DNA from: Woeseiaceae bacterium
GTDB taxonomy: Bacteria > Pseudomonadota > Gammaproteobacteria > Steroidobacterales > Woeseiaceae
Reading direction: 5' to 3'
Length of the DNA stretch: 64,000 nt
Assembly: GCA_021773115.1 (NCBI GenBank)
Contig: JAJFKS010000003.1
Location: 248,001 to 312,000, forward strand
Each line of letters begins with the position of its first letter. The stretch's first letter is position 1. Below the pieces are notes generated by a model. That model made no database searches, was not told where the DNA came from, and saw nothing but the letters and a program-made list of their open reading frames with translations. The translations under genes were made by a program, and so were the position numbers. Shown here one piece after another: positions 9,385 to 64,000 of the stretch.

Positions 9385-9490
9385 TGAGCTACTCCGAAAG
9401 GTTGTGCGACCATGGTTGGCCAAAGCCTGCGAGCGAACTATGCGCGGTCGAGACTACAATCGTCAAATTTGTCCGAATACTGCCTGCGTG

Positions 9491-46054: not shown

Positions 46055-47278
46055 ATGCCACACCACGTAATTTTTGCCGCACCGTTTTTCATGGACGCGA
46101 CTCTACGCTTCCTGCGCGGAGCGGTACGTCTGCCAAACGTCGCACTGACTGTCGTGAGCCAGGATCCGGAAGATCGGATGCCGGCTGACTTACGAGCCGA
46201 AATCGCCGGACACTGGCGCGTTGACGATGCGCTGGATCCGCAGCAACTGGTTGATGCCGCCCGACACCTCGAAGCCCAATTTGGCCGGCCGGTCAGTTAC
46301 ATAGCGGCGCTGGAACAGCTACAGGTGCCGCTCGCGATCGCGCGTGAATTCATGGGCATTGAAGGCTTGTCGACGGCGGCGGCAAAGAACTTTCGCGACA
46401 AGTCCCGCATGAAGGATGTACTGCGTGGCGCGGGCGTGCCGTGCGCCCGACACGCCCTGGTAGGTGACCGAGCGGCAGCGACAGCGTTCGTCGAGCAGGT
46501 TGGCTATCCCGTCGTCGTGAAGCCACCCGACGGTGCCGGTGGCAAGTCCACGTTTCGGCTCGATCGCCCGCAAGACCTCGAAGCCTGGCTGCAAAAGTAT
46601 TCGCCTCATCCACAACGGCCGAGTCTGTTTGAAGAATTTGTTCGCGGCACCGAACACTCTTTTGACAGCGTCATGGTCAACGGAAAATCTGTGTGGCACT
46701 CAATTTCCCGCTACATGCCATCGCCACTCGAAGTCATGGCGAACGCCTGGATCCAGTGGTGTGTCATGCTCCCGCGCGACATCAGCGGTAGTGAATACGA
46801 TTCGATACGCGAGGCAGGCGTCAAAGCGAACCGCGTGCTGGGACTCAAGACCGGCTTAAGCCACATGGAGTGGTTTCGAAAGGCGAGCGGTGACATTGCC
46901 ATCTCCGAAGTTGGGGCCCGTCCACCGGGTGCACAATTTTCAACGCTGTTGTCGTATGCACACGATGTCGACTTTTACCGTGCGTGGCCGCACCTGATGG
47001 TTTATCGAGAATTTGATCCGCCGCAGCGCAAATACGCCGCCGGTGCCGCGTATATCCGTGGACAAGGCCGCGGCCGCGTCAAGCGTATCGCCGGCATCGA
47101 CGAAGTACGGCGTCGATTCGGTTCTATCGTCGTCGAGGCAAAGCTGCCGCATGAGGGACAGCCGCCCAGCGACAGTTACGAAGGCGACGGCTACATTATC
47201 GTGCGTCACCCGGATACGGATGTGGTGCAAGATGCATTGCAACACATTGTCAGTACAATTCGCGTCGAGCTGCAATGA
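46055..47278 (+). CDS. ATP-grasp ligase, cluster paralogue 1
   Basis: A 407-residue ATP-grasp protein, predicted to join a carboxylate to an amine through an acyl phosphate. A Rossmann-like pre-ATP-grasp domain (about 1-110) is followed by GYPVVVKPPDGAGG, with ATP-binding K156, then LFEEFVRGTEHSFDSVMVNG. SHMEWFRKASG and SEVGARPPGAQF form the metal-binding region (about residue 270-290), and the C-terminal part ends in YIIVRHPD plus a helix. The same layout is found in the genes at 50681 and 53452. It has no clear Shine-Dalgarno. It overlaps the S51-like gene by 4 bases (ATGA). Substrates are unknown. Confidence 0.88.
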   Translation: MPHHVIFAAPFFMDATLRFLRGAVRLPNVALTVVSQDPEDRMPADLRAEIAGHWRVDDALDPQQLVDAARHLEAQFGRPVSYIAALEQLQVPLAIAREFMGIEGLSTAAAKNFRDKSRMKDVLRGAGVPCARHALVGDRAAATAFVEQVGYPVVVKPPDGAGGKSTFRLDRPQDLEAWLQKYSPHPQRPSLFEEFVRGTEHSFDSVMVNGKSVWHSISRYMPSPLEVMANAWIQWCVMLPRDISGSEYDSIREAGVKANRVLGLKTGLSHMEWFRKASGDIAISEVGARPPGAQFSTLLSYAHDVDFYRAWPHLMVYREFDPPQRKYAAGAAYIRGQGRGRVKRIAGIDEVRRRFGSIVVEAKLPHEGQPPSDSYEGDGYIIVRHPDTDVVQDALQHIVSTIRVELQ

Positions 47279-48219
47279 ATTCGGGGGCACCTTTGCGGCT
47301 GTTGCTGGGACCACAACGACCGGTAGTCAACCTTGGCATCGCTATGGCCGAGTGCGGCATCGGCGACGGACCCATTGCTGTCATATCGGCGGCCTGGCAG
47401 GAGGCCGAAGGTGATATCGATGACATTCGCAAACTCGTCAGTAACGAGCTTTTCGACCTGCCGATTTATCAGCGTGCCTACGCTTTATTCGAAGCGGACA
47501 AACCCTTGCATGACGCATACCGGAGCCGCCAGGACCAACTGATCGACCAGCAACGCCTGTATCGACTGCGCTTGCGTCAACTGACCATCGCTGCCCGCGG
47601 GATACTGCGAGCCGACGGCAACCCGGATGCGATTGATGAAGAACGTCGACACGCGATTTCCCAATTGCGCGCACTCGATCGACACCATCTTCGACAGATC
47701 AACAAGATCTATAAACGATTTGAGGAAACGTTCGACAGGGTACGAAACTCCAGGCTTGCCGAACATATCGTCGAAATTGAGAAACAGCTCGAACGCTGCG
47801 AAACCGTGCTCATCACCGGCGGCAACGTCGTTGTTCTGATGAATCGCCTGCAGTTGTTTGGTCTCAGCCGTGTTTTGAGCCGCAAAAACATTGTCGGCTG
47901 GTCCGCTGGCGCGATGGCACTTTGCGATCGTATTGTTCTTTTTCACGATCGCATGCCACAGGGCCGCCGTGACCCGGAAGTGATGTGTAATGGCCTCGGT
48001 CTTGTACCGGGCACCGTATTGTTGCCCGATGCAAGGAATCGCTTGCGCACCAGCGAACGGGTCCGAAGCAGCTTGTTCAGCCGGCGTTTCGCGCCCGCCT
48101 CCTGTCTGACACTCGACAACGAGTCTTTATTGCTAATGCAGGATGGCAGGGTTCTGAACAGCGAATTGGTTCGGCACATTGCTCGTGACGGTAAATTTGC
48201 AAGGGTTAAAGTCACATGA
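47275..48219 (+). CDS. S51 peptidase (peptidase E/cyanophycinase)-like protein
   Basis: A 314-residue protein whose C-terminal half resembles the S51 fold. VLITGGNVVVLMNRL is the glycine-rich turn, GWSAGAMALCD holds the nucleophile S210 in the nucleophile elbow, and GLGLVPGTVLLPDA follows. In peptidase E the corresponding NPH segment carries the catalytic histidine; here D252 appears at that place by my alignment from memory, so the triad may be altered. The N-terminal 170 residues are rich in charged helices (DRHHLRQINKIYKRFEETF) and are not standard. It is translationally coupled to the ATP-grasp gene before it and the esterase after it. It may cleave or bind the product of the ligases. Confidence 0.7.
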   Translation: MNSGAPLRLLLGPQRPVVNLGIAMAECGIGDGPIAVISAAWQEAEGDIDDIRKLVSNELFDLPIYQRAYALFEADKPLHDAYRSRQDQLIDQQRLYRLRLRQLTIAARGILRADGNPDAIDEERRHAISQLRALDRHHLRQINKIYKRFEETFDRVRNSRLAEHIVEIEKQLERCETVLITGGNVVVLMNRLQLFGLSRVLSRKNIVGWSAGAMALCDRIVLFHDRMPQGRRDPEVMCNGLGLVPGTVLLPDARNRLRTSERVRSSLFSRRFAPASCLTLDNESLLLMQDGRVLNSELVRHIARDGKFARVKVT

Positions 48220-49352
48220 CGCCGACACTCAAGAAACTGATTCAGAAAAACACCCTCGAAGCGTCCGATATCGACGCGTTTGTTCAGGACAATGAATTCC
48301 CGCTGGTTGACGGCACCGATGTCACGTTTGTCTACCGGGGCGCGGCGGACTCCGTCAATTTGCGCTGCTGGATTTCCGGACTGGATACCGCACAACCGTT
48401 CCAGGCGTTGCCCGGCACCGACCTCTGGGCAACAACCATCGAGCTGCCGAAAGGTTCGCGAATCGAGTACAAGCTGGAGGTGACGCGTCAGGGTAAGCGG
48501 AAGCTGATCCTCGACCCGCTTAACAAGGTCATTGCACACGACCCGTTCGGAGCGAACTCGGTCTGCCAGGGCTTCGGTTACGAGCGGCCGGAATGGGCAA
48601 GCCATGATCCGTTGTCCCGACTCGGCGCGCTGGAACGCAAGCGAATCGATAGTCAGGCTTTTGGCGAGCCGCGCGACATCCAGGTGTATTTGCCGGCGAC
48701 GTTTCGCAAAAACCGACGTTATCCGCTGCTGATCGTCCATGACGGCGACGACTATCTGCGCTACGCCGACCTCAAGATTGTGCTCGACAACCTGACGCAC
48801 CGGCTGGAGATCCCACCAATGATTGTGGCACTGACGCAGTCGCCGGACCGCCTGGCTGAGTATGCCGGCAACGATAAACATGCGCAGTTTCTTGCCAAAG
48901 ACTTGCTGCCGTTGATGAGCACTGAGTATCCATTGATAGATAGCGTCGATTCGCGTTGCGTCATGGGTGCCAGTTTCGGTGGCGTTGCCACATTGCATGC
49001 GGCGTGGCGATACCCCGAACATTTCGGCTGCCTGTTGCTGCAATCCGGGTCGTTTGCGTTCAGCGACCTCGGCCGCCACAAGCGTGGCCCGGTGTTCGAC
49101 CCGGTGGTGCGATTCATGAATGAATTTCGGGAACAACCCTGTCGACCAGCCGACCGCGTGTTCATGAGCTGCGGCGTGTATGAATCGCTGATATACGAGA
49201 ACCGCTCGCTAGTTCCGCACCTGCAATCAAAAGGTGTTGATCTCAGATTTGAAGAGGCGCGCGATGCCCACAACTGGGAAAACTGGCGTGACCGGCTGCG
49301 TATCGGGCTTTCCTGGCTGATGCCCGGACCCGCCTGGCTGGTCTACGAATAA
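48216..49352 (+). CDS. Alpha/beta esterase (enterochelin esterase-like) with N-terminal E-set-like domain
   Basis: A 378-residue protein. The N-terminal part (about 25-110: VTFVYRGAADSVNLRCW, LWATTIELPKGSRIEYKLEV) has the pattern of a CBM48/E-set domain, as in Fes-type esterases and in glycogen-active enzymes. The catalytic domain has VYLPATFRKNRRYPLLIVHDGDDYL, nucleophile S253 in MGASFGG, and H352 in DAHNWENWRDRL; an aspartate between them would finish the triad. Fes-like enzymes hydrolyse cyclic ester or peptide-ester products. Here it is coupled by ATGA to the S51-like gene, so it may release or transfer the ligase product. Binding to glycogen through the E-set is possible but unproven. 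Confidence 0.8.
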   Translation: MTPTLKKLIQKNTLEASDIDAFVQDNEFPLVDGTDVTFVYRGAADSVNLRCWISGLDTAQPFQALPGTDLWATTIELPKGSRIEYKLEVTRQGKRKLILDPLNKVIAHDPFGANSVCQGFGYERPEWASHDPLSRLGALERKRIDSQAFGEPRDIQVYLPATFRKNRRYPLLIVHDGDDYLRYADLKIVLDNLTHRLEIPPMIVALTQSPDRLAEYAGNDKHAQFLAKDLLPLMSTEYPLIDSVDSRCVMGASFGGVATLHAAWRYPEHFGCLLLQSGSFAFSDLGRHKRGPVFDPVVRFMNEFREQPCRPADRVFMSCGVYESLIYENRSLVPHLQSKGVDLRFEEARDAHNWENWRDRLRIGLSWLMPGPAWLVYE

Positions 49353-49429
49353 ACCTGTCGGGGATACACGCTGGCGTCTTGCGCCTGCTATATTGGTGCT
49401 GAACTGCGAACCCCAAGGAAAACCAGACA

Positions 49430-50674
49430 GTGGCAGAAAAAACACGAAAAATCGGCCTGTCACTCGGTGCCGATATTTGCTGGCCAATTTGCTACGAAGC
49501 CTTGCTCAAAGAGCTTGATCTGAGCATCAAGATAGGCAAGGACACACTCAAATTCGAAGTCGAGCGAGTCAATATCGAGCCCTTCGATTTGCAGCAGCCC
49601 TGCAAGTACGACGTGGTTATCGACCGCCTCACGCACTGGTACCATACCTCGCGAGAATGGATCAAAAAATCCATTGTTATGAATGACTTATATGTCTTCA
49701 ACAATCCATGGACGCTACAGTCGATGGAGAAAAACACCAGCTACGCGGCGATGATGCGACTCGGTTTTCCGGTTCCCCGGACCTGGATGATTCCGCCGAA
49801 GTCCTATGCGGAATCGGCCGATCTGCAGCCAACACTGAAGCGCTATGCAAAGCTTTTCAATTTGGGCGATATCGGTGACAAGATCGGCTACCCCTTGTTC
49901 ATGAAGCCCTATGACGGTGGTGCCTGGGTGGGTGTCACCGCGATCAGAAATCGCGAAGCGCTGGAAGACGCTTACAACGACAGCGGCACGCGCGTAATGC
50001 ATTTGCAGGCCGGCGTTATTCCGTTCGATGGCTTCGTGCGCTGCATCGGACTGGGCCCACAATGGCGTTGCGTCAATTACGATCCGGACGCCCCATTGCA
50101 CGACCGTTACCGTATGGATGAAAACTTTTTGTCGGCCTCGGAAGAGCAGCGCATGAGAGACTTTACAATAGTCATCAATGCGTTCTTCGGCTGGGATTTT
50201 AACTCCTGTGAGTCATTGCTTAGCAAGGGCGAATGGCACCCGATAGACTTCGCGAACGCGTGCCCGGACTCGCAGGTAACGTCCCTGCACTACCACTTTC
50301 CATGGCTGATCAAGGCGAACATCAGGTGGTCGGTTTTCTGCGCCGCGACCCAACGACGACCCAACACAGACCTCAACTGGCGTGAATATTTTGATATCGC
50401 GGACCAGGACATCCCGTTTGACGACAAACTCGCGCAGTACGTGAAGATCGCGCGTGCTCGATTCGATATCGACGCATTTGAAACATTCTGTGACAAGCAC
50501 CTGGGCCATCTGGATGAAGTCGCCAACAACTACTTCGCAACCGACGCCGTCAAGGCTGCCATTCGGGAAAAAGTTGAAGCCCTGTACCCGGAGCATGAGT
50601 TTGACGACTTCACCGATTTGTTCTGGAACAGAATCCAGAGCTGGCGTGAATTTGAGAAGTCATCGAGTACCTGA
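49430..50674 (+). CDS. ATP-grasp ligase, more diverged (RimK-like in part)
   Basis: A 414-residue protein starting at GTG (AAGGA about 10 bases upstream). An N-terminal pre-ATP-grasp region (about 1-110, LSLGADICWPICYEALLKEL) and NPWTLQSMEKNTSYAAMMRLGFPVPRTWMIP lead to GYPLFMKPYDGGAWVGVTAI, the ATP-binding lysine strand. HPIDFANACPDSQV late in the domain provides acidic metal ligands. A C-terminal helical part (about 320-414) is not found in the other ligases here. Sequence is clearly different from the three paralogues around it. It lies 77 bases after the esterase gene and ends 6 bases before the convergent ATP-grasp gene. The substrate is unknown. Confidence 0.82.
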   Translation: MAEKTRKIGLSLGADICWPICYEALLKELDLSIKIGKDTLKFEVERVNIEPFDLQQPCKYDVVIDRLTHWYHTSREWIKKSIVMNDLYVFNNPWTLQSMEKNTSYAAMMRLGFPVPRTWMIPPKSYAESADLQPTLKRYAKLFNLGDIGDKIGYPLFMKPYDGGAWVGVTAIRNREALEDAYNDSGTRVMHLQAGVIPFDGFVRCIGLGPQWRCVNYDPDAPLHDRYRMDENFLSASEEQRMRDFTIVINAFFGWDFNSCESLLSKGEWHPIDFANACPDSQVTSLHYHFPWLIKANIRWSVFCAATQRRPNTDLNWREYFDIADQDIPFDDKLAQYVKIARARFDIDAFETFCDKHLGHLDEVANNYFATDAVKAAIREKVEALYPEHEFDDFTDLFWNRIQSWREFEKSSST

Positions 50675-50680
50675 GGCGGG

Positions 50681-51898
50681 CTACTCGGCGTACATTTGAA
50701 TCTCTGAGCCAACGGCGTCTGCCATGTCCATCGTGGTCTGCAGGTCCGGATGCCGCAGCATGACGAAGCCATCGGACACCAGGGTCCGCAACCAGTTGCG
50801 GCGCGGTGTTCCGGGCTGTGACAAGGTGCTCCAGACGACGTGCTCGCCGAAGCGCGCTTGCAACTCGTCAATGCCATCGATGCGTGTGATGCGTCCAACG
50901 CCACGCGCGCGCTTGAATACAGTCGCAACGTTGTAACGCCGTTTGTAAGGCTCAAGAATTTTGCCGTGGCTTAGCGCCTGCCCCCAGGCCTTGAACACGT
51001 CAAAGTCGCAGGCGTATTTCATTTGATCAACCTGGTGCGCGCCGGGTGGCCGACCGCCAATTTCGCCGAATACCACTTCGCCATCGGCTTTCCGATACCA
51101 CTCCATGTGCGTAAAGCCGGTATCAAACTGTAGTGCCTTGATAACGTCAAAACCCATTTTTACACCGTCGGCCAAATCCGGATGATCAACATCGTTGAGC
51201 GCAATCACTTGTGGACTGATCCATTCGTTGCTGCGGGCGATCAGCGGGCGCGGCCGGTACCAGGCGATATTGTAGTAAGCGATCTCGCCATTAATCGTGA
51301 TCGTATCGAATGTGTATTCTTCGCCGTCGATAAACTCCTCAATGCTGATACGCGGCACATGGCGCAACAACGGCAGAACCGCTCGCATTTCCTCGCGTGA
51401 GTTCACGCGGTAGGTATCAGCCGATCCAGCACCGTCAATCGGTTTAAGAATGACGGGAAAACCGATGGTTTCTGCCGCTTCCCAGCAGCCAGCAACGCTG
51501 TCGACGGCAACGTGCCGGGGTGTCCGTATACCGGCCGCGTCGAGAGCAACTTTCATCGCCTCCTTGTCACGGAACAGGTGAGCGTGCTCGACCTTCATGC
51601 CGGTAACGCCGAAATGCTCGCGTAATTCGGCCGCCAGCATGACGCCCGGCTCCCACAGGCACTCGATTCGATCCAGCTGCTGTCCCTTGAGCTTCTGTGT
51701 GAGCTCCGCGATAACACGGCCGCTGTCCCACAATGACGAGACTTGCACATATTCCGACAATGAGTGCCTTACCTGATCCGGCAGGCCTCCGGCATGCTGG
51801 TCACCAACACCGAAAACCCGTGCGCCCGACTCGGCCAGGCCGCGGGTGAATTCGGGCATATCGGCGGGGTAGCCAGGCGATATAATCAATACATTCAT
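50681..51898 (-). CDS. ATP-grasp ligase, cluster paralogue 2 (reversed orientation)
   Basis: A 405-residue ATP-grasp protein on the opposite strand to its neighbours. ATG at 51898 starts the fold (NVLIISPGYPADMPEF); the frame extends 70 codons further upstream with no sign of protein. Motifs are LFRDKEAMKVALDAAGI, FPVILKPIDGAGSADTY, ISIEEFIDGEEYTFDTITING, THMEWYRKADG, GEIGGRPPGAHQ and VMLRHPD, in the same order as the genes at 46055 and 53452. The start is only 18 bases from the glgA start, so each gene's promoter must lie in the other gene. A local inversion could explain the arrangement. Confidence 0.87.
   Translation of the reverse strand: MNVLIISPGYPADMPEFTRGLAESGARVFGVGDQHAGGLPDQVRHSLSEYVQVSSLWDSGRVIAELTQKLKGQQLDRIECLWEPGVMLAAELREHFGVTGMKVEHAHLFRDKEAMKVALDAAGIRTPRHVAVDSVAGCWEAAETIGFPVILKPIDGAGSADTYRVNSREEMRAVLPLLRHVPRISIEEFIDGEEYTFDTITINGEIAYYNIAWYRPRPLIARSNEWISPQVIALNDVDHPDLADGVKMGFDVIKALQFDTGFTHMEWYRKADGEVVFGEIGGRPPGAHQVDQMKYACDFDVFKAWGQALSHGKILEPYKRRYNVATVFKRARGVGRITRIDGIDELQARFGEHVVWSTLSQPGTPRRNWLRTLVSDGFVMLRHPDLQTTMDMADAVGSEIQMYAE
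51881..51886 (+). promoter_or_regulatory. Candidate -10 element for glgA
   Basis: The bases read TATAAT, a perfect -10, 30 bases before the glgA ATG, inside the divergent ATP-grasp coding region. Transcription would begin near 51893. No good -35 hexamer stands 16-18 bases upstream. Because only 18 bases separate the two divergent starts, a promoter for glgA in this place is necessary unless transcription comes from further away. Confidence 0.35.
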
Positions 51899-51916
51899 AC
51901 AGTTCGCGCCATTTCT

Positions 51917-53455
51917 ATGAAAACCAGCAGGACCAGCAATTCTCAAAGTAGAATAACATCCGACACTCAAATAAATGGACCACAATTGGCCAGGAAAAAG
52001 AAACTGAAAATCTGTCTCGCGACGGCCGAATTTGCCCCACTCGCCAAAACCGGTGGCCTGGCTGATGTCAGTGCAGCGTTGTCCGTCTATCTGCACGGTG
52101 CCGGACACGATATCCGCGTCGTGATGCCCTTTTATTCGACGCTGAATCGAGGTGAGCTCAAATTCGAGCCGGTCGACAATTTTCAGAATCTGACGGTCAC
52201 CCTTGGTCCCTGGGATGTCGAGTATTCAATTTACCGCACCGTCTTGCCAAGATCCGGTCTGCCGATCTACCTGCTCCGCTGCCCGGCGCTTTATGACCGC
52301 GATGGTTTGTATACGTCCGGGAAAGACGAGCACCTGCGTTTTCTACTGCTGTCCCGCGCTGCGATTGAAATGTGTCAGCACATGCAGTTTTCGCCGGATA
52401 TCTTTCATTGCCATGACTGGCACGCAGCGACGATTCCGCTGTACCTCAAGACCAACTACGCCTGGGATAAACTGTTTGCCGACACGCGTTCGGTACTGAC
52501 CATTCATAACATCGGCTACCAGGGCAAGTTTCCGGCCGAAATTCTCGCCGACATGACGCTGGGTCCGAATGTCGGTCACCTGCATCAGGATGATCTTTCG
52601 AGCGGTATCATAAATTTCCTGAAGACAGGCTTGTTGCACGCAGACTTGCTTACGACGGTCAGCCCGACTTACGCACGCGAGATTCAGGGCGCCGAGTACG
52701 GTATGGGTGTCGACGACATCCTGCGTGCGCGCAGCGACGCGCTGATCGGGATATTGAATGGTGTCGACGATGCGGAATGGGATCCGCAGACCGATCAGCT
52801 CATTCCCCGAAAATTTTCGATGCAGAACCTTTCGGGAAAGAAAATCTGTAAGCGAGATTTACTGAAGGAATTGGGTCTTGATGGCAATCTGAATCGGCCT
52901 GTGATCGCCGTTATCAGCCGCTTCGTCAGCCAAAAAGGCTTCGATCTGATGGAGAAGGTGCTGCCCAGGCTTCTCACGCAGCGGGATTTCTCACTCGCGG
53001 TGCTCGGCAGCGGTGATCCGCAACTCGAAGCGTTTTTCGACAGCTTGCGTCGCCAACTGCCGAGTCGCGTTGGCTTTTATCGAGGTTTCAACAACAAGCT
53101 CGCGCACTGGATAGAAGCAGGCGCCGATATGTTCCTGATGCCGTCACGCTATGAGCCCTGCGGACTTAACCAGATGTACAGTCTCAAATACGGTACTGTA
53201 CCCATCGTGCGCGAGACTGGCGGATTGGCGGATTCCGTGCAGCAAATTAATCCATCAACCCGCAGCGGCACTGGCGTCTTATTTCGGGACTACGATGAGG
53301 CCGGCATTGACTGGGCCATCAATACGGCACTGGACTTGTACAAAGACCGGCCGCTTTGGCAAGAGATCATACAGAACGGCATGGCGATGGATTTCTCGTG
53401 GCAACAACAAGGAGAACAGTACGTGAACATTTTTCGCAAACTGTCAGGCAAATGA
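51917..53455 (+). CDS. glgA: Glycogen synthase (ADP-glucose type)
   Basis: A 512-residue GT5 glycogen synthase, moving glucose from ADP-glucose to the growing alpha-1,4 chain. KICLATAEFAPLAKTGGLADVSAALS carries the KTGGL ADP-glucose motif. CHDWHAATIPLYL, VLTIHNIGYQG and the C-domain ISRFVSQKGFDLM and RYEPCGLNQMYSLKYGTVPIVRETGGLAD are all intact. A Ser/Thr-rich, positively charged N-terminal extension of about 27 residues precedes the core, so a later TTG start could be used instead. Its stop overlaps the next ATP-grasp gene by 4 bases (ATGA), which is very unusual for glgA. The glgC, glgB, glgP and glgX genes follow after three ligase genes. Confidence 0.96.
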   Translation: MKTSRTSNSQSRITSDTQINGPQLARKKKLKICLATAEFAPLAKTGGLADVSAALSVYLHGAGHDIRVVMPFYSTLNRGELKFEPVDNFQNLTVTLGPWDVEYSIYRTVLPRSGLPIYLLRCPALYDRDGLYTSGKDEHLRFLLLSRAAIEMCQHMQFSPDIFHCHDWHAATIPLYLKTNYAWDKLFADTRSVLTIHNIGYQGKFPAEILADMTLGPNVGHLHQDDLSSGIINFLKTGLLHADLLTTVSPTYAREIQGAEYGMGVDDILRARSDALIGILNGVDDAEWDPQTDQLIPRKFSMQNLSGKKICKRDLLKELGLDGNLNRPVIAVISRFVSQKGFDLMEKVLPRLLTQRDFSLAVLGSGDPQLEAFFDSLRRQLPSRVGFYRGFNNKLAHWIEAGADMFLMPSRYEPCGLNQMYSLKYGTVPIVRETGGLADSVQQINPSTRSGTGVLFRDYDEAGIDWAINTALDLYKDRPLWQEIIQNGMAMDFSWQQQGEQYVNIFRKLSGK

Positions 53456-54672
53456 ACATCATTTTCGTCGAGCCGTCTTTTCCGCGAAACCAGCGTGAGT
53501 TTGTTCGTGCGTTACACGCAGCCGGTGCCAATGTTATCGGTATCGGCGAGCGACCAGCGGAATACCTCGACGACGAAGTAAAAAGCTGGCTGCACGACTA
53601 TGTGCAGGTGCGTTCGGTGGTTCATGAGCCCTCCATGCTGGAGGCTGTAAAGATGATCCAGGGAAAACTCTGGGTCGACCGAATCGAAGCGACAGTGGAA
53701 GCTCACATCATGCCGGTCGCAGCCGTGCGCGAAGCGCGCGGGATTCCGGGCACATCGACTGAAACTGCGTTTCTTTGTCGCGACAAGCCCGCGATGAAAG
53801 AAGTCCTGCGCAAAAACGGCATTTCCTGCGCGCAGTCAATGCGGGCGGAATCGCCACAGGATGCTCGGGAGTTCAGTGCAGCGGTCGGATACCCGCTTAT
53901 CATCAAACCGCCGGCCGGAGCAGGCGCATCGGGCACATACAAGATCAAGAACGATGCCGAACTTGAACGAGTCATTCAGGAATCCGGCCTCGCCGACGGG
54001 CAGGCAGTTGCCATCGAGGAGTTCATCGAGGGGCACGAAGGTTACATCGACACGCTGTCGATTGATGGCAAGGTCCATCATGAGTTCATCACACACTATT
54101 ACCCGAACGTGCTTGAAGCCATGCGGGAGCGATGGATATCTCCACAAATGGCGACCACCAATCGAATCGATGCGCCAGGCTACAAAGATGTCCGACAGAT
54201 GACCCGCGATGTTATCCGCGTGCTGAAAATTGCTACGTCCGCAACCCACATGGAATGGTTCTACGGACCCAAAGGTCTAAAGTTCTCCGAGATTGGCTGC
54301 CGCCCGCCCGGCGTCGGCCAATGGGATGTTTACAACGCCGCGAATGAATTTGACCTGTTTTTTGAGTGGGCCTGTGCCCTGGTACACGGTGATACCCACA
54401 AGAAACCGTCACGTCGGTACGCTGCAGGTATGATCGCACTGCGCCCGGATCGCGATGGTCGGATCAGCGGCTATTCCGGCGTCGACGAGATCTACCAGCG
54501 ATATGATGATTGTATCGTCAAAGCACATTTGCCCAATCCAGGGACCGCAACGATGCCCGTTGAAGCAGGCTACATGGCCAATGCCTGGCTGCGGGTTCGC
54601 CACCCTGACTACGACGCTTTACGAAATTTAATGAACGACATCGGACAAACACTTAAGGTTCATGCGTCGTGA
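53452..54672 (+). CDS. ATP-grasp ligase, cluster paralogue 3
   Basis: A 406-residue ATP-grasp protein, translated by overlap from glgA. The pre-ATP-grasp domain (NIIFVEPSFPRNQREFVRALHAAGANVIGIG) is followed by FLCRDKPAMKEVLRKNGI and YPLIIKPPAGAGASGTYKI with the ATP-binding lysine. AIEEFIEGHEGYIDTLSIDG, THMEWFYGPKG, SEIGCRPPGVGQ and LRVRHPD complete the pattern. It shares layout and motif order with the genes at 46055 and 50681, so the three derive from duplication. Its stop overlaps the next gene by 4 bases (GTGA). Direct coupling to both glycogen synthase and a peptide ligase suggests a shared product or regulation. Confidence 0.88.
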   Translation: MNIIFVEPSFPRNQREFVRALHAAGANVIGIGERPAEYLDDEVKSWLHDYVQVRSVVHEPSMLEAVKMIQGKLWVDRIEATVEAHIMPVAAVREARGIPGTSTETAFLCRDKPAMKEVLRKNGISCAQSMRAESPQDAREFSAAVGYPLIIKPPAGAGASGTYKIKNDAELERVIQESGLADGQAVAIEEFIEGHEGYIDTLSIDGKVHHEFITHYYPNVLEAMRERWISPQMATTNRIDAPGYKDVRQMTRDVIRVLKIATSATHMEWFYGPKGLKFSEIGCRPPGVGQWDVYNAANEFDLFFEWACALVHGDTHKKPSRRYAAGMIALRPDRDGRISGYSGVDEIYQRYDDCIVKAHLPNPGTATMPVEAGYMANAWLRVRHPDYDALRNLMNDIGQTLKVHAS

Positions 54673-56213
54673 GTCATAGCGAGGTTGAACGGTTTCGCGA
54701 GCTGCAGAAACAGCTGCCGATTGTCTGGGAAAAATTCCAGGACGATCCCTGTTACGAACACACCTCAGTCATCGTCCCGTCGATGAGCGTTAATCAAGAA
54801 GAGCTGGCAAAAGTGACTGGCGCCGCTTTTTACGAGGAACGATTGATGTTCGCACTAATTCGGCTGCGCAACCCGAACGCACGGCTAATCTACCTCACCA
54901 GCCAGCCGGTGCATCCCGACGTCGTCGATTACTATTTGCAGCTTCTCGATAGCGTGTCCGCGAGTCATGCCCGCAAGCGGCTGCAAATGGTCTCGGTATT
55001 CGATTCAAGCCCGCGGCCTTTATCTGAGAAGATTCTTGAACGACCAAACTTGATAAAGCGTCTGCGGAAGTTTATTGGTGACACCGAAAACGCTTACCTG
55101 ACCTGTTACAACTCGACAACGCTCGAACGACAACTTGCGCTTGCGCTTGGCATCCCGATGAACGGCCTGGATCCGGAGTTGTTGGAGTTCGGTACGAAAT
55201 CCGGCAATCGAAAGATATTCGCAGAAGCGGGCGTCAACTTTCCGGCTGGGCTGGAAGATCTGCACAGCGAGGACGACATCGTCAATGCACTCGCCACACT
55301 ACGCAAACGACGCCCACAGATTGATCGCGCGGTGGTGAAGTTGAATGAAGGTTTTGGCGGCGAAGGCAATGCCGTCTTCAAGTACCCCCATGTGGCGACA
55401 GGCAGCAACGGGATTCGAGAGGCGTTGCATGAACTGTCATGGCTGTCCCGCAACGAAACCTACGATAAGTTCCTCGGCAAGTTCGATGTAATGGGTGGTA
55501 TCGTCGAAGAATTCATCGCGGCCAGGGAAACGCGATCGCCCAGTGTGCAAATGCGGATCCTGCCGAACGGTGATTCGCGGCTGATATCCAGTCATGAACA
55601 GGTACTCGGCGGCACGACAGGTCAGGCCTATCTGGGTTGTCGTTTTCCAGCGGACGACGATTATCGAAAGCTATTGCTCAATAACGCAGAAAAGGTCGGC
55701 AAGGTGCTAAGCAAACACGGCATCATCGGTCGATTCGCCATCGACTTCATGGCGGCTCGTGACGAGAATGGCTGGAGCGCGCATGCCATTGAGATCAATT
55801 TGCGCATGGGTGGCACCACACCGCCCTTCCATGCCCTCGAATTTCTTACCGGTGGCGAGCTTGATGCTGAAACCGGGCACTTCGTCGCACCCAACGGCCA
55901 GACGAAGTTTTACAGCGCGACGGACAATCTGAAATCGCCGGCGTATCGTGGGCTACTGCCGGAAGACTTATTCGAAATCATCTGGAACAGTGGTATCGGC
56001 TTCAAACATTCTACGGGAACCGGGGTGCTGTTTTATATGATCGGTGCATTATCGCAATACGGCAAGCTCGGAGTAACCTGTATCGGTAATAGCAGCGAAG
56101 AGGCGCAGGAATTGTTTGCGAACACCGTCAAAGTTCTTGATGCGAGCACCGCCGGCGATGGCCGCACTGGCCAGGCGGCACCGATGTCAGACCGTTACGT
56201 TGCAATTGAGTAA
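54669..56213 (+). CDS. PGM1-type peptide ligase (ATP-grasp with PGM1_C domain)
   Basis: A 514-residue protein starting at GTG. The N-domain (about 1-170) contains IVPSMSVNQEELAKVTGAAFYEERLMFALIRLR, which is typical of PGM1-related ligases. The ATP-grasp part has RAVVKLNEGFGGEGNAVFKYP, GGIVEEFIAA, GRFAIDFMAAR and EINLRMGGTTPPF with metal ligands. The C-terminal stretch TGTGVLFYMIGALSQYGKLG, then VTCIGNSSEEA, matches the PGM1_C domain. PGM1 makes the peptide bond in pheganomycin, joining a nonproteinogenic amino-acid derivative to peptides of various sequence. Here no precursor peptide gene is seen nearby. It overlaps the ATP-grasp gene before it and ends 8 bases before the PurD-like gene. Confidence 0.85.
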   Translation: MSHSEVERFRELQKQLPIVWEKFQDDPCYEHTSVIVPSMSVNQEELAKVTGAAFYEERLMFALIRLRNPNARLIYLTSQPVHPDVVDYYLQLLDSVSASHARKRLQMVSVFDSSPRPLSEKILERPNLIKRLRKFIGDTENAYLTCYNSTTLERQLALALGIPMNGLDPELLEFGTKSGNRKIFAEAGVNFPAGLEDLHSEDDIVNALATLRKRRPQIDRAVVKLNEGFGGEGNAVFKYPHVATGSNGIREALHELSWLSRNETYDKFLGKFDVMGGIVEEFIAARETRSPSVQMRILPNGDSRLISSHEQVLGGTTGQAYLGCRFPADDDYRKLLLNNAEKVGKVLSKHGIIGRFAIDFMAARDENGWSAHAIEINLRMGGTTPPFHALEFLTGGELDAETGHFVAPNGQTKFYSATDNLKSPAYRGLLPEDLFEIIWNSGIGFKHSTGTGVLFYMIGALSQYGKLGVTCIGNSSEEAQELFANTVKVLDASTAGDGRTGQAAPMSDRYVAIE

Positions 56214-56221
56214 ATTAAACC

Positions 56222-57520
56222 ATGCCTGTTGAAGCCAAAAAGTTTCTGTTTGTTTCCATTGATGCGCTGATCAGTGACATCGCCTGGGCCGTCCGCAAAG
56301 AGGGCTGTGAGGTCCGCTATTTCATCGAAGCTGAATCAGAGAAATCCATTGCTGATGGTTTCGTGGACAAAGTTGACGACTGGGAAAGTCATGTTGACTG
56401 GGCCGATGTTATCGTGTTCGATGATGTGCTCGGCCAGGGCGAAAAAGCCAAGTCCTTGCGAGACGCTGGCAAGCATGTCGTAGGCGGCACACCGTATACT
56501 GACAGGCTCGAAGATGATCGCAGCTTTGGCCAGGAAGAACTGAAGCGCCACGGCGTTTCGATCATTCCGTTTCAGGATTTCAATGATTTCGACACGGCCA
56601 TCGAATACGTCAAAACGCATCCTGCACCCTATGTCATCAAGCCCAGCGGCGAAGCACAGAACATTAAGCGACTGCTGTTTGTCGGCCAGGAGGATGACGG
56701 TCGCGACATCATCCACGTGCTGGAATCCTACAAGGCGGTGTACTCCGATACCGTGAAAGTATTTCAGCTGCAAAAACGCGTCCGCGGCGTCGAAGTGGCC
56801 GTCGGCGCTTTTTTTAACGGCAAAGAATTCATGATGCCGATTAATGTCAACTTCGAACATAAGTTACTGTTCCCGGGTGACATCGGCCCCGCTACCGGCG
56901 AAATGGGAACCTGCATGTACTGGAGCGGTCCGAACAGCATCTATGCCGCAACACTTGCAAAGTTGGAAAAACGCCTGGCTGAAGAAAGCTATGTCGGCTA
57001 CATCGATGTCAATTGCATCGTCAATGGCCAGGGTATTTATCCGCTGGAGTTTACGGCACGATTTGGTTACCCGACCATCAGCATCCAGGCCGACGGCCTG
57101 CAAATGCCCGTTGGCGACTTTTTGAGCGGCATGGCCGATGGGAGTCTGAAAAACTTCAAGACCAAGCGTGGCTTCCAAATCGGTGTACGCGTCGTTGTGC
57201 CGCCATTTCCTTATTACGATCCGAAAACCTTTGAAGCTAACTCAAAAGATCGCGTAATTATTTTTCGCAAGCCACAGTACGACGGCGTCCACATTGAAGA
57301 TGTCAAGCTCGTTAACGGCGAGTGGCTAATTACTGGCAAATCAGGTGTCGTACTCATCGTCACCGGCTTCGGCGTTTCGGTAAAACAGGCTCAGGCGCAG
57401 ACTTATCAACGCATCAAGAACATCCTGATTCCCAATATGTATTATCGCAAGGACATCGGTGACCGCTGGTTCGAAGATCACGATAAATTGCACACATGGG
57501 GCTATCTTCGCGAGAACTAA
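56222..57520 (+). CDS. PurD-like ATP-grasp ligase
   Basis: A 432-residue protein with the layout of phosphoribosylamine-glycine ligase-like enzymes. The N-domain (AKKFLFVSIDALISDIAWAVRKEGCEVRYFIE) is followed by DDRSFGQEELKRHGVSIIP, YVIKPSGEAQNIKRLLFVG, VEVAVGAFFNGKEF, GYIDVNCIVNGQGIYPLEFTARFGYPT with the metal-binding Glu, and a GARS C-like end. The true purD substrate motifs are not obvious (for example TGEMGTCMYW replaces TGGMG), so I do not call it PurD. It is the last ligase before glgC. It may add an amino acid or another amine to an unknown acid. Confidence 0.82.
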   Translation: MPVEAKKFLFVSIDALISDIAWAVRKEGCEVRYFIEAESEKSIADGFVDKVDDWESHVDWADVIVFDDVLGQGEKAKSLRDAGKHVVGGTPYTDRLEDDRSFGQEELKRHGVSIIPFQDFNDFDTAIEYVKTHPAPYVIKPSGEAQNIKRLLFVGQEDDGRDIIHVLESYKAVYSDTVKVFQLQKRVRGVEVAVGAFFNGKEFMMPINVNFEHKLLFPGDIGPATGEMGTCMYWSGPNSIYAATLAKLEKRLAEESYVGYIDVNCIVNGQGIYPLEFTARFGYPTISIQADGLQMPVGDFLSGMADGSLKNFKTKRGFQIGVRVVVPPFPYYDPKTFEANSKDRVIIFRKPQYDGVHIEDVKLVNGEWLITGKSGVVLIVTGFGVSVKQAQAQTYQRIKNILIPNMYYRKDIGDRWFEDHDKLHTWGYLREN

Positions 57521-57542
57521 ACGACTGGATTTCGTCAGGCAG

Positions 57543-57571
57543 TTGTCGTGCCGCACTATAGCGCTTAGAGT
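57543..57571 (+). promoter_or_regulatory. Candidate promoter for glgC-glgB-glgP-glgX
   Basis: TTGTCG (57543-57548) and TAGAGT (57566-57571) are separated by 17 bases in the 99-base gap between the PurD-like gene and glgC. The -35 differs from consensus at two positions and the -10 at two or three. It would allow the later glycogen genes to be expressed apart from the ligase genes upstream, although read-through from those genes is equally likely. Confidence 0.35.
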
Positions 57572-57619
57572 ATCAATTTGAGCGACCCAACAAGAGCAAT
57601 TACGCTTACAGGCGAAACT

Positions 57620-58906
57620 ATGACAACTCCTCCGGTACAAGACCCTTCACGTTACGTCAGCCGTATGGCTCGAGAAACGCTGGCGCTAATTCTTGCCGGC
57701 GGCAAGGGTTCGCGCCTATACGAGCTAACGAATTGGCGCGCGAAACCGGGTCTGTATTTTGGTGGTAAGTTTCGGATCATCGACTTCCCGCTGTCCAACT
57801 GCGTCAATTCCGGTATTCGACGTATTGGCGTTGCAACACAATACAAAGCGCACTCCCTGATTCGACACTTGGTTCACGGCTGGTCATCACGCTATGCCGC
57901 CGAGGCAACCGAATTCATCGAGATATTGCCTGCCTCGCAACGTGTCGGCGGCGAGTGGTACCGGGGTACTGCGGATGCCGTGTACCAGAACCTCGACATC
58001 ATTCGCACGCACCAGCCAAAGCAAGTGTTGATTCTGGCCGGCGACCATGTTTACAAGATGGATTATGGCAATCTGCTGGTCGAGCATGCCGAAAAACAAG
58101 CCGACATGACGGTTTGCTGCATCGAGGTGCCGATCGCTGAGGCGGCCGGCCAATTGGGTGTCATGACCATCGACGAAGCCGGACGCGTTATCGCATTTGA
58201 TGAAAAGCCCGCGAATCCAACTCCGATCCCTGGACAGACGGAATTGTGCTTGGCCTCAATGGGTAACTACGTCTTCAACACCGGTTTCCTGTACGAGCAG
58301 CTCATCAAGAACGCCGATGATCCGAATACGCAGCATGATTTTGGCAAGAATATAATTCCAACAATCATCGACAGGTATCAGGTCTTCGCATTCAAATTTC
58401 GCGACCCGGTCACGCAGAAGCAAGCTTACTGGCGCGATGTTGGAACCCTTGATGCTTTCTGGGAAGCCAATATGGAGCTGGTCTCGGTCACACCGGAGCT
58501 CAATCTCTACGATCAGAGATGGCCAATCCTGACGTATCAGTCACAACAGCCGCCAGCGAAGTTCGTCTTCGATCTTCCCGAGAGGCGCGGTTACGCAACG
58601 GACTCCATGGTTTCCGGCGGATGTGTAATCTCCGGTTCCCATGTCAAACGCTCTCTGTTGTATTCAAACTGCACGGTTAAATCCTACAGTACGGTGACAG
58701 ACAGTTTGTTATTACCCGACGTCGAAGTCGGACGCCATTGCCGGATCAGCAAGGCCATCATCGACCGTGGCGCCATCATCGCGGAAAATACAGTGATCGG
58801 TGAAGACCTCAAAGCTGACCGGGCGCGCGGGTTCCGCGTTACCGACAGCGGCATCACGCTCGTGACACCTGACATGCTCGGACAGGAATTGCATATCACC
58901 CGTTAA
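57620..58906 (+). CDS. glgC: Glucose-1-phosphate adenylyltransferase
   Basis: A 428-residue ADP-glucose pyrophosphorylase, the committing step of glycogen synthesis. [23 protein letters not shown] is the nucleotide-binding and activator-binding N-terminus, [16 protein letters not shown] follows, and [29 protein letters not shown] and [10 protein letters not shown]-type segments are intact. The C-terminal left-handed beta helix has [16 protein letters not shown]. The ATG at 57620 is used because it is close to the core and has AGG 8 bases upstream; the open frame begins at 57578. It is allosteric in the family (fructose bisphosphate, pyruvate or AMP), with the ligand unclear here. Confidence 0.95.
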
Positions 58907-58927: not shown

Positions 58928-61096
58928 TTGAAACCTACAGACTTATCTGATCTCGCCATGGGTCGGCACCGCGATCCGTTCGCGGTGCTGGGCCCTCATG
59001 CCAATGGTGACAAAACGCTGATTCGCAGCTTTCAACCTCATGCCAGCAGCGTGGAACTGCTGGACAGTAAAGGCGAACCACTGATTGGCATGCGCCGCGT
59101 TCATCCGGACGGGATTTTTTCGGCCTCGATCCCCGCAAACATCAGTGCGTATCGGCTACGAATAACAACAGCGGGCGGGCACGTTTACGATATCGATGAT
59201 CCGTATCGATTTCCCTCGGCGCTTGGAAATCTCGACTTGCACCTGCTCGCTCAGGGCGAACATCACGAACTGTACGAGAAACTCGGTGCGCACCCGCTCA
59301 CATTACAGGGCGTAGCAGGAACGCACTTTGCTGTCTGGGCACCGAATGCCGGTCGAGTTAGCCTGGTGGGCAGCTTTAACGACTGGGATGGGCGACGACA
59401 CCCAATGCGTCTGCACCCGGATATCGGTGTGTGGGATATTTTCATGCCGGCGGTCGGCAAGTACGATTTTTACAAGTTCGAAATATGTGATGCAGCGTGC
59501 AAGTTGCTGCCCCTGAAAACCGACCCGCTGGCGCAATACCACGAGAGTCCGCCGGGTAACGCATCGCGCGTTTATGAATCCAGTTTCACCTGGTCCGACA
59601 ACGACTGGATGAGACATCGAGGTAACGCTCCGGACCTCAGTCAGCCCTTAAGCATTTACGAGGTTCACCTTGGATCATGGCGACGCAGGCATGATGATGG
59701 GGATCGCTGGCTGACGTATCGCGAACTCGCCGATGAACTGGTGGCTTACGTCGTGGACATGGGTTTTACCCATATTGAATTGCTACCGGTAAGTGAACAC
59801 CCCTTCGATGGCTCGTGGGGTTATCAGCCAATCGGTATGTATGCTCCGACCTATCGCTTCGGCGAGCCGGATGATTTTCGACATTTCGTCAATGCCTGTC
59901 ACCAGGCTGGCATCGGTGTGATAATCGATTGGGTTCCTGCACATTTTCCGCGCGACACGCATGGCCTGTCACGATTTGACGGAACTGCCCTGTACGAGCA
60001 CGCCGATCCTCGCAAAGGAGAACACGCCGACTGGGGAACCTTGATTTTCGACTACGGCCGCAACGAGGTTCGCAACTATCTGCTGGCCAGCGCCCTGTAC
60101 TGGATCGATGAATTTCATATCGATGCATTGCGCGTGGACGCGGTTGCATCAATGTTGTATCTCGACTATTCGCGAGACGCTGGCGAATGGCTACCGAATG
60201 AACACGGCGGAAATGAGAATCTTCAGGCGGTGTCTTTTCTTCGTCGCCTCAATGAACTTGTGCACGAACATGGTGCAATGACGTTCGCCGAAGAATCAAC
60301 CTCGTGGCCACGTGTATCCGGCCCCACCTATGACGGAGGCCTTGGGTTCACGTATAAATGGAATATGGGATGGATGAACGACACTCTTGCGTACATTGGC
60401 GAAGAACCCATCCACCGCAAACACCATCACGACAAGATGACATTCGGACTGGTCTACGCGTTCACTGAAAATTTCCTGCTACCGCTTTCTCATGACGAGG
60501 TGGTACACGGCAAGCAGTCCTTACTGGGCAGAATGCCGGGAGACGAATGGCAACGCTTCGCCAGTCTTCGCACCTATTACGGCTTTCTGTTCGGGCACCC
60601 GGGAAAGAAGCTGCTTTTTATGGGTAATGAATTTGCACAGGTTCGCGAGTGGAATCACGACACGTCGCTCGACTGGCACCTCCTCGACAAGCCCCAGCAT
60701 CGTGGTGTGCAGGCGCTGGTTCGCGACCTGAATCAGGCCTACCGCGAGATTCCGGCGCTGCACGAATTGGACTGTAGCCACGAGGGTTTCCAGTGGATTA
60801 TTGCCGATGATCGCGATTCCAGCGTCCTGTCCTGGATTCGACAGGCACGTAATGGCGACTTCGTCATTTGTGTATCGAACTTTACGCCAGTTGTCAGGCA
60901 CAATTACCGGATGGGCGTCCCGGCTCACTGCCAGTATCGGGAACGCCTGAATACGGATGATCAAAAATACGGCGGTAGCGGTGTCTGCAATGCAACACTG
61001 ATCGACTCCGAAGCCGTCGAAAGTCACCAGCAACCCGCCTCAGTGCAATTGACCTTGCCACCGCTCTCTACAGTCATTCTGCAAGTCGCAGAGTAA
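58928..61096 (+). CDS. glgB: 1,4-alpha-glucan branching enzyme
   Basis: A 722-residue GH13 enzyme that makes alpha-1,6 branches in glycogen. An N1 domain (about 1-110) and a CBM48 (about 115-215, FAVWAPNAGRVSLVGSFNDWDG) precede the catalytic barrel. D404 in LRVDAVASML is the nucleophile, E455/E456 in FAEESTSW includes the acid/base, and D523 in PLSHDEVVHG the third carboxylate. The C-domain closes the protein. The start is uncertain: TTG at 58928 has its GGAG 14 bases away, while an ATT at 58922 would be 8 bases from it. It lies 21 bases after glgC. Confidence 0.95.
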   Translation: MKPTDLSDLAMGRHRDPFAVLGPHANGDKTLIRSFQPHASSVELLDSKGEPLIGMRRVHPDGIFSASIPANISAYRLRITTAGGHVYDIDDPYRFPSALGNLDLHLLAQGEHHELYEKLGAHPLTLQGVAGTHFAVWAPNAGRVSLVGSFNDWDGRRHPMRLHPDIGVWDIFMPAVGKYDFYKFEICDAACKLLPLKTDPLAQYHESPPGNASRVYESSFTWSDNDWMRHRGNAPDLSQPLSIYEVHLGSWRRRHDDGDRWLTYRELADELVAYVVDMGFTHIELLPVSEHPFDGSWGYQPIGMYAPTYRFGEPDDFRHFVNACHQAGIGVIIDWVPAHFPRDTHGLSRFDGTALYEHADPRKGEHADWGTLIFDYGRNEVRNYLLASALYWIDEFHIDALRVDAVASMLYLDYSRDAGEWLPNEHGGNENLQAVSFLRRLNELVHEHGAMTFAEESTSWPRVSGPTYDGGLGFTYKWNMGWMNDTLAYIGEEPIHRKHHHDKMTFGLVYAFTENFLLPLSHDEVVHGKQSLLGRMPGDEWQRFASLRTYYGFLFGHPGKKLLFMGNEFAQVREWNHDTSLDWHLLDKPQHRGVQALVRDLNQAYREIPALHELDCSHEGFQWIIADDRDSSVLSWIRQARNGDFVICVSNFTPVVRHNYRMGVPAHCQYRERLNTDDQKYGGSGVCNATLIDSEAVESHQQPASVQLTLPPLSTVILQVAE

Positions 61097-63632: not shown

Positions 63633-64000
63633 CCGACGTTCAGGATGCAATGACTCTCGGTGCGAACTGGGATGGTACCGGCGTGAGTTTCGCACTGCAT
63701 GCGGCGGGCGCGAGTAGCGTCGAACTTTGCCTGTTTGATACGGCAGGCCAGCTGCACAGCTGCAGCGACTTACCGAATTGTGACAACGGCATTTTTCACG
63801 GTTATTTGCCTGGCTGCCAGCCCGGCCAGCATTATGGCTACCGCGTGCACGGGACGTATGACCCATCGGCCGGGCTTTTCTACAACCCCAGTAAATTGCT
63901 AATCGACCCTTACGCACGCTTGCTCAGTGGCCCGGTCATCTGGTCCGACGCCGTCTATGGCCACGACCTCTCGCTTGACCCAAAGCAAGCCATGCGCCGT
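63629..64000 (+). CDS. glgX: Glycogen debranching enzyme GlgX, N-terminal part (runs off window)
   Basis: The ATG at 63629 overlaps the glgP stop and the frame stays open to the right edge, giving the first 124 residues. The CBM48-type N-domain reads LGANWDGTGVSFALHAAGAS, VELCLFD, GYLPGCQPGQHYGYRVHGTYDPS, FYNPSKLLIDPYARLLSG, which is the recognisable start of GlgX/isoamylase-type debranching enzymes. It removes alpha-1,6 branches shortened by the phosphorylase. The catalytic barrel is beyond the window. The TreX-like name is an alternative. Confidence 0.9.
   Translation, partial: MTDVQDAMTLGANWDGTGVSFALHAAGASSVELCLFDTAGQLHSCSDLPNCDNGIFHGYLPGCQPGQHYGYRVHGTYDPSAGLFYNPSKLLIDPYARLLSGPVIWSDAVYGHDLSLDPKQAMRR

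Follow-up and report, generated by a model that had tools for sequence, protein, structure and literature searches.

The systems closest to the locus described here are the GlgC-GlgA pathway, which as described has neither ligases nor esterases, and a few systems in which ATP-grasp enzymes or related esterases are at work. The cyanophycin system is an ATP-grasp amide storage system with an S51-fold hydrolase; RimK and ArgX add amino acids to proteins, RimK modifying a ribosomal protein; L-amino acid ligases (LAL) and RimK-like enzymes yield soluble products, namely peptides or chains of amino acids; and Fes acts on a soluble ester. Unlike the described glycogen pathway, the locus found in a stretch of 64,000 nucleotides from a Woeseiaceae bacterium (hereinafter, the window) holds six ATP-grasp proteins of four kinds (AG1 to AG6), an S51-like protein, and a Fes-like esterase (EST) arranged around the glycogen synthase gene glgA, which leads into glgC-glgB-glgP-glgX. 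This organization, put forward in an original prediction, was confirmed by the coordinates and by Pfam, NCBIfam, and model evidence, all the genes listed in that prediction being found in their places by translation and Pfam/NCBIfam searches. The neighborhood is conserved in at least three phyla, and in the genus of the window the ligase AG2 is tied to glgA. Our reading, to which we assign somewhat less than an even chance, is that of a conserved module in which amino-acid ligases and ester hydrolases are coupled to a glycogen synthase (in many cases an additional copy) and an amide unit is carried on the glucan.

The survey of the genus comprised 73 genomes, and AG2 (49430..50674, plus strand) was the one ligase sought in all of them. 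It was found in 15 genomes and, in all 15, a glgA gene scoring over the cut-off is located on the same contig, at a distance of 769 to 3848 bp; in one of them (G273) the two pieces of AG2 lie on separate contigs, and just the C-terminal one shares the contig with glgA. None of the 54 genus genomes lacking an over-cut-off glgA harbors AG2. The probability of this association is about 3e-12 if the genomes are taken as independent, a figure that shared ancestry makes too small. An over-cut-off glgA without AG2 was disclosed in 4 of the 58 genomes devoid of AG2. In one of them (locus L100) a glgA of the cluster type (60% identical) persists in 20 kb devoid of ligase genes; in L102 (genome G185, about 9467-11970) a full-length glgA match lies beside the remains of AG4 (57 of 406 amino acids, aa), AG3 (23 of 405), and AG1 (255 of 407); in L101 the glgA gene is on a 9.6 kb contig, and L099 carries another GlgA type (37% identical). 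Hence, within the genus, the dependence between the two genes looks one-way, in that glgA can persist without the ligases and AG2 was not seen without glgA.

A scan of species genomes with AG2 was then considered, using the best 80 of 475 relatives, a set that favors close relatives and includes many short contigs. The flanks were examined up to 10 kb, genes were counted by tblastn placement, and each flank measures 8 kb or more in 35 of the 80 loci. According to the record titles, the loci belong to Gammaproteobacteria (Woeseiaceae and others), Alphaproteobacteria, Myxococcales/Deltaproteobacteria, Planctomycetota, Acidobacteriota, Eisenbacteria, and Gemmatimonadetes. The most frequent companion within 10 kb of AG2 is EST, with 78 loci, followed by a second esterase, EST2 (69), the S51-like gene (66), AG4 (55), glgA (44, including L079 at 26% identity), AG3 (39), and AG1 (34). 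The remaining genes are rarer, i.e., glgC (14), AG5 (11), glgB (10), glgP (10, including L087 and L088 at 23-24%), AG6 (4), and glgX (3). When only the loci with full flanks are considered, glgA is present in 21/35, at least one of AG1, AG3, and AG4 in 27/35, AG5 in 7/35, and AG6 in 2/35; the three genes AG1, AG3, and AG4 occur together in 28 of the 80 loci.

The spacing of these genes is also conserved. In the loci holding both members of a pair, no more than 250 bp separate S51 from EST (66/66), EST from AG2 (74/78), and AG2 from EST2 (67/69); the same distance holds for GlgA and AG4 in 38 of 41 loci, on the same strand in 36, and AG3 is placed on the strand opposite to GlgA, again within 250 bp, in 23 of 31. 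The glgA-AG4 pairs occur, among others, in loci of Gammaproteobacteria, Myxococcales/Deltaproteobacteria, and Planctomycetota. The core is thus composed of S51, EST, AG2, EST2, AG4, glgA, AG1, and AG3, some lineages having all of it and others a part. The original prediction had treated all six ligases as one set: this stands for AG1 to AG4, whereas AG5 and AG6 are accessories outside the widely conserved core, and EST2, which belongs to it, is missing in the window.

In the window, the genes of the cluster are packed in an operon-like fashion, with stop/start overlaps at AG1/S51, S51/EST, glgA/AG4, and AG4/AG5; AG3 and glgA are divergent, with 18 bp between their starts, and the largest intergenic gap within 46055-57620 is 99 bp. 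Gaps of this size would leave little room for a ribosomal precursor (of the graspetide kind), although this does not cover small antisense or overlapping frames and no dedicated precursor search was made. No Rfam family reached its gathering score anywhere in the window, and a promoter scan, which was not used, gave 3 promoter-like sites against a shuffle mean of 7.6. EST2 is absent between AG2 and AG3; its sole relative in this genome is 32% identical and lies on another contig. In the closest relative (L019, 1505-3147; AG2 92% identical), the usual place of EST2 is occupied by transporter-like and GAF-like genes, as judged by eye.

The glgA gene (51917..53455, plus strand) encodes a full-score ADP-glucose glycogen synthase of the ordinary glycogen type (TIGR02095, 532 bits, cut-off 328), and the other genes of the pathway follow on the same strand. 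They are glgC (57620..58906), coding for an ADP-glucose pyrophosphorylase assigned by model (TIGR02091, 487 bits, cut-off 425); the branching enzyme gene glgB (58928..61096) and the glycogen phosphorylase gene glgP (61128..63632), assigned by reading the translations and by homology (65-66% and 68% identity, respectively, to the homologues of the L107/L108 operons); and the start of the debranching enzyme gene glgX (63596..64000, ending beyond the window; ORF 97-2193 of L002), assigned from its sequence and with a homologue in L107/L108. A second GlgC-like gene of the same genome (G000:C27:281549-282664) scores 417 bits, just under the cut-off.

Regarding the copy number of the synthase, the glgA of the window is the sole GT5 found in its genome at E<=1e-20. 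Besides the cluster glgA, eleven of the 15 AG2 genus genomes carry a divergent GT5 that, at about 254-284 bits, falls short of the GlgA cut-off, so that in them the cluster glgA is a second copy; in the two operons that were read (G210 and G271), the divergent gene sits in a separate glgC-glgA'-glgB-glgP-glgX. In the window, glgB comes directly after glgC, and the operon abuts the ligase cluster. Taken together with the lack of a second GT5, this arrangement is most simply explained by a loss of glgA' and its replacement by the cluster glgA; if so, the product of the latter would function as a glycogen synthase. As to glgC, it is present in 53 of the 73 genus genomes and in all the 15 carrying AG2, but within 10 kb of AG2 in just 3 of them. 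Hence, the expectation that the ligases keep company with the glycogen genes was borne out for glgA, in the genus and in 44 of the 80 loci, and not for glgC. For the same reasons (glgC near AG2 in 3/15, separate operons elsewhere), the whole glycogen operon was rejected as the conserved unit in favor of glgA alone.

AG1 (46055..47278, plus strand, 407 aa), AG3 (50681..51898, minus strand), and AG4 (53452..54672, plus strand) match generic ATP-grasp models (of Pfam in the case of AG1) and are paralogues, with about 27-36% identity across the family. Their profile, built on 55 members, matches the L-amino acid ligases 4wd3 (1e-38), BL00235 (3vot, 3e-29), and BacD (3e-24), and the E-x-G-x-R metal motif of BL00235 is present in the alignment with 3vot, which places them in the LAL type. 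The three proteins resemble L-amino acid ligases and may form dipeptides from free amino acids. The sequence of AG2 gives weak matches (Pfam Dala_Dala_lig_C, 2e-4; best PDB profile match, 2e-4, to D-Ala ligases); it does not match the curated RimK model, and NCBIfam yields just two weak matches of the D-Ala ligase type. Its structural model (mean pLDDT 86), which has an extra helical part at the C-terminus, finds RimK (5zk6, E 3e-10) as the top fold match, followed by ArgX and D-Ala ligases; according to the model, AG2 is an ATP-grasp fold closest to RimK. No variation is seen at K159, R204, E261, D273, and N276 across the 80 homologues. Spread on plasmids was rejected, as no AG2 match was found in the plasmid collection, and in a class-level draw of 185 genomes the only one carrying AG2 is that of the window, the sample being too thin to inform. 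The amide or peptide-type chemistry suggested by the original prediction thus fits what is predicted for these four ligases.

EST (48216..49352, plus strand; PF00756, 2.3e-22) is a Fes/CE1-like serine esterase with a beta-rich N-terminal domain. Its nucleophile Ser253 and its His352 are invariant in 76/76 homologues, and in EST2 Ser119 is conserved in 67/67 and His225 in 66/67, with one gap. Both proteins, having the PF00756 domain with conserved Ser and His, fall in the CE1/esterase fold, and judging from these residues they look catalytically competent. The model of EST (pLDDT 91) matches Fes (2b20) and the CBM48-CE1 esterases across 360-400 columns; on the Fes equivalog NF007758 it scores 109.9 bits, below the cut-off of 222. 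No signal peptide was seen by eye (no prediction program was run). With regard to the N-terminus, starch-binding families are among the lesser Pfam matches of the 35 members searched, i.e., CBM_20 in 21/35 (best 0.002), CBM_48 in 4/35, and AMPK1_CBM in 1/35; the EST of the window is below the cut-off both for CBM_20 (13.5 vs. 23.3 bits) and for Enterochelin_N (25.3 vs. 27.1). When the N-terminal profile is compared with PDB sequences, the glucoamylase starch-binding domain comes first (1ac0, E 0.001; 6frv, 0.018), ribosomal proteins follow at noise level, and Fes reaches 0.61; a Lys and an Asn aligned to that domain are invariant in 77/77 ESTs. This likeness is a lead for glucan binding, not a proof.

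The S51-like protein (47275..48219, plus strand) matches PF03575 (Peptidase_S51) at 7.5e-12; its role as a peptidase is doubtful because the expected His is poorly conserved: the Ser is kept in 59/63 homologues, and the column of the candidate catalytic His, placed according to the family motif, holds a His in 24/63 and an Asp in the window. The protein may not be a peptidase.

Other genes were noticed beside the esterases in some variants. In two acidobacterial-type loci (L079, 6864-9941, and L098, 6875-9955), EST and AG2 are separated by the gene for a sensor-like protein of more than 1000 aa (by eye, of the beta-propeller type), which may detect some signal on behalf of the cluster. Downstream of EST2 there are a GCS2 ligase in L083 (12050-13207) and, in L061 (12026-15247), a CBS-domain protein read by eye as GCS2-like and an AstE/AspA-type enzyme; the CBS-domain family recurs in 7 loci.

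The two accessory ligases follow AG4 on the plus strand. AG5 (54669..56213; PF18105, 8.7e-12, and PF24923, 5e-27) is PGM1/BesA-like, with PGM1_C and ATP-grasp_IQCH domains; its PGM1_C score (44.8 bits) exceeds the cut-off of 22.5, and against the BesA model NF042917 it reaches 160 bits, the cut-off being 750. AG6 (56222..57520; PF01071, 2.9e-15) is GARS/PurD-like and scores about 114-115 bits on the PurD model TIGR00877 (cut-off 288); as a purine gene it was ruled out, the true purD of the genome being located elsewhere (573 bits). A search for AG5 in 60 relatives gave eight finds: in four cases the cluster is present as well, in two there are just pieces at the ends of contigs, and the last two, of another family, lack the cluster. 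In L015 (9621-13300) and L016 (7320-10910, same order), AG5 homologues stand beside genes resembling, by eye, 2-oxoacid:ferredoxin oxidoreductases, the rest of the cluster being absent. A CorA-like Mg transporter is found near AG5 in L012 (6408-8999), together with an MGH1-like glycoside hydrolase, and in L017 (1170-2243, by the resemblance of the first residues). Upstream of the cluster, the window itself carries two adjacent MgtE-like genes and one MscS-like gene, recognized by eye (43056-45920, minus strand).

In the mechanism that we propose, GlgA would build the alpha-glucan chain from the ADP-glucose supplied by GlgC, while AG1, AG3, and AG4, together with AG2, would convert carboxylates into acyl phosphates and assemble from them a short unit of amide-linked amino acids or a peptide. 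The glucan would carry this unit, probably as an ester to a glucose hydroxyl, and its release on use of the store would fall to EST2 and to EST (perhaps docked on the glucan via its N-terminal domain), with the S51-like protein as a possible binding or trimming partner. The formation of acyl phosphates and amide bonds by the ligases is likely, given their enzyme families; the amide product, the cytosolic action, the attachment to the glucan, the ester linkage, and the write-and-erase roles are what we infer. The dependence of AG2 on glgA, the extra glgA, the glgA-AG4 coupling and, faintly, the N-terminus of EST favor a glucan-bound product over a merely co-expressed one, without proving it. 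The extra amide-chemistry enzymes of the variants (GCS2 in L083, the AstE/AspA type in L061) were also counted in favor of the module, and the predicted C7orf58-type proteins of PMC2824669 offer a precedent for ATP-grasp and esterase enzymes acting on polymers.

Several observations weigh against this mechanism. The covalent link to the glucan is itself inferred. In fold, EST is nearer to Fes (TM about 0.72) than to the CBM48-CE1 polysaccharide esterases (about 0.6), and at its N-terminus Enterochelin_N, found in 35/35 members (best 1.9e-8), outranks the starch-binding families; moreover, the position of the glucoamylase Trp is occupied by Trp in 31/77 ESTs and by Leu in 45/77, including that of the window. 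The His of the S51-like protein, as seen above, is not conserved. Furthermore, no glgA is located near AG2 in any of the eight alphaproteobacterial loci (L052, L053, L054, L080, L083, L089, L091, and L093), nor in the two loci of Gemmatimonadetes (L076, L090) and the two of Eisenbacteria (L058, L094). The idea that ligase and glycogen genes might sit apart as often as together, by which the linkage would be chance, is contradicted in the genus, where AG2 is always accompanied by glgA, and finds some ground in other lineages, where they are often apart.

Whether loci of the latter kind are simply split was checked on 19 AG2 genomes without glgA in the flank (L092 and L093, two of the 14 full-flank loci without glgA, were left out). 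A GT5 match is present elsewhere in 19/19 genomes, over the cut-off in 17; given how widespread GT5 genes are (56 of the 73 genus genomes have one), this carries little weight. At E 1e-60, genes of the AG1/3/4 type are detected in 13 of these genomes and not in the other six; in the former, they are within about 1.5 kb of glgA in five genomes (G282, G284, G286, G288, and G289) and away from it in eight, and these figures, too, speak against the proposed module. One locus counted without such genes at this threshold (L089, genome G292) does carry AG4 in two pieces. The genome of L049 (G278) has a glgP-glgB-glgX-glgA-glgC set located away from EST-AG2 (L109), a further adverse case, and in G296 (L094) no cluster gene lies within 18 kb of glgA (L110). 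Some genomes may therefore run EST-AG2-EST2 without AG1, AG3, and AG4. Within 10 kb, L093 (Oceanibium sediminis O448), the single record of the 80 whose title does not name a metagenome assembly, shows EST-AG2-EST2 alone.

These loci, in which EST-AG2-EST2 have no glgA nearby, fit a different scenario, in which a soluble small peptide or amide (for storage or as an osmolyte) is made in parallel to glycogen and co-expressed with it, remaining unattached, and the esterases act on that compound. We hold this to be only a little less likely than our own reading: LAL and RimK-like enzymes belong to families that make soluble products, and EST resembles Fes, whose substrate is a soluble ester. However, it leaves unexplained why glgA, often an extra copy, lies between the ligase genes and is never missing where AG2 is present in the genus.

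The tight linkage with glgA could be accounted for if the ligases tagged a protein, e.g., GlgA or another protein of the glycogen particle, thus controlling glycogen metabolism in the way RimK tags a ribosomal protein; the nearest folds to the AG2 model, RimK and ArgX, belong to enzymes acting on proteins. Nevertheless, AG1, AG3, and AG4 look like ligases of free amino acids, and two ester hydrolases would have no explanation, so that we regard protein tagging as unlikely. It is quite unlikely that the cluster makes a secondary metabolite, such as a defense compound or a metal chelator, with a glucosyl part from GlgA. The patchy presence in the genus (15/73), the Fes-like esterase, and the BesA-like AG5 would agree with it, but the core families include no transporter, resistance, NRPS, or PKS gene (the flanks were not searched for these by model), and GlgA is of the ordinary glycogen type.

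The position of GlgA between the ligase genes and the extra GlgA of 11/15 genomes might also suggest a bacterial counterpart of glycogenin, the ligases providing a peptide that serves GlgA as primer or anchor for a new glucan. This appears very unlikely, since cluster-type glgA persists without the ligases and the GlgA of Agrobacterium is self-priming (PMC11046441, PMC8116748). Finally, that glgA and the ligases are mere neighbors by chance or hitchhiking, as the lineages in which they are apart might suggest, is close to refuted by the 15/15 linkage in the genus (bearing in mind that the genomes behind its probability are not independent) and by the glgA-AG4 adjacency across the three groups mentioned above.

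Returning to the proposed module, its boldest form states that several phyla make an alpha-glucan decorated with amino acids or peptides, in which a dedicated, often second GlgA is served by four amide ligases that write and two esterases that erase, the whole being a combined store of carbon and nitrogen; in this form we consider it doubtful. If true, the glycogen of many sediment and soil bacteria would be not a plain glucose polymer but one linked to amino-acid chemistry, which would change how carbon and nitrogen storage are counted and would add an intracellular route for attaching amino acids to a polysaccharide. Even if less is read into it, one of the storage pathways known in most detail has a conserved group of about eight genes linked to it; owing to this link, the product could be found via the glycogen purified from a carrier.

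The terms "ATP-grasp", "amino acid ligase", and "esterase" are absent from the available portion of a 2024 review of bacterial alpha-glucan enzymes (PMC11046441). No paper tying ATP-grasp ligases to glycogen synthase is present among the matches listed from the open-licence literature, in agreement with the statement, already made in the original prediction, that no glycogen locus is known to have been described in this way.

When the locus is compared with the known systems, the GlgC-GlgA pathway is represented in it by GlgA and GlgC, recognized by model, and by GlgB, GlgP, and GlgX, recognized by homology. The likeness to the pair formed by cyanophycin synthetase and cyanophycinase lies in the combination of ATP-grasp amide storage and an S51-fold hydrolase. 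The ATP-grasps of the window match cyanophycin synthetase over the ATP-grasp part only and far below the cut-off, and the S51-like protein scores 20 bits on the cyanophycinase model (cut-off 126.6); on the basis of these scores and of an S51 without the conserved His, the cyanophycin pathway was ruled out. RimK and ArgX are the best fold match of the AG2 model (5zk6, TM 0.69 on the target and 0.50 on the query), from which AG2 differs by an identity of 17%, weak ATP-grasp sequence matches, added C-terminal helices, and a different gene context. AG1, AG3, and AG4 have in common with the L-amino acid ligases 4wd3, BL00235, and BacD the ATP-grasp core and the E-x-G-x-R motif; unlike them, they form three separate families alongside glgA and two esterases. 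EST shares the two-domain architecture and the catalytic Ser/His with Fes and the CBM48-CE1 esterases, being nearer to Fes (22-25% identity, vs. 17-20% to CBM48-CE1), but there are no siderophore genes among the core families. Parts of the neighborhood may, reportedly, be listed in the 2009 amidoligase survey by Iyer and colleagues. The parts of the locus come from known families, and we know of no system that matches it as a whole.

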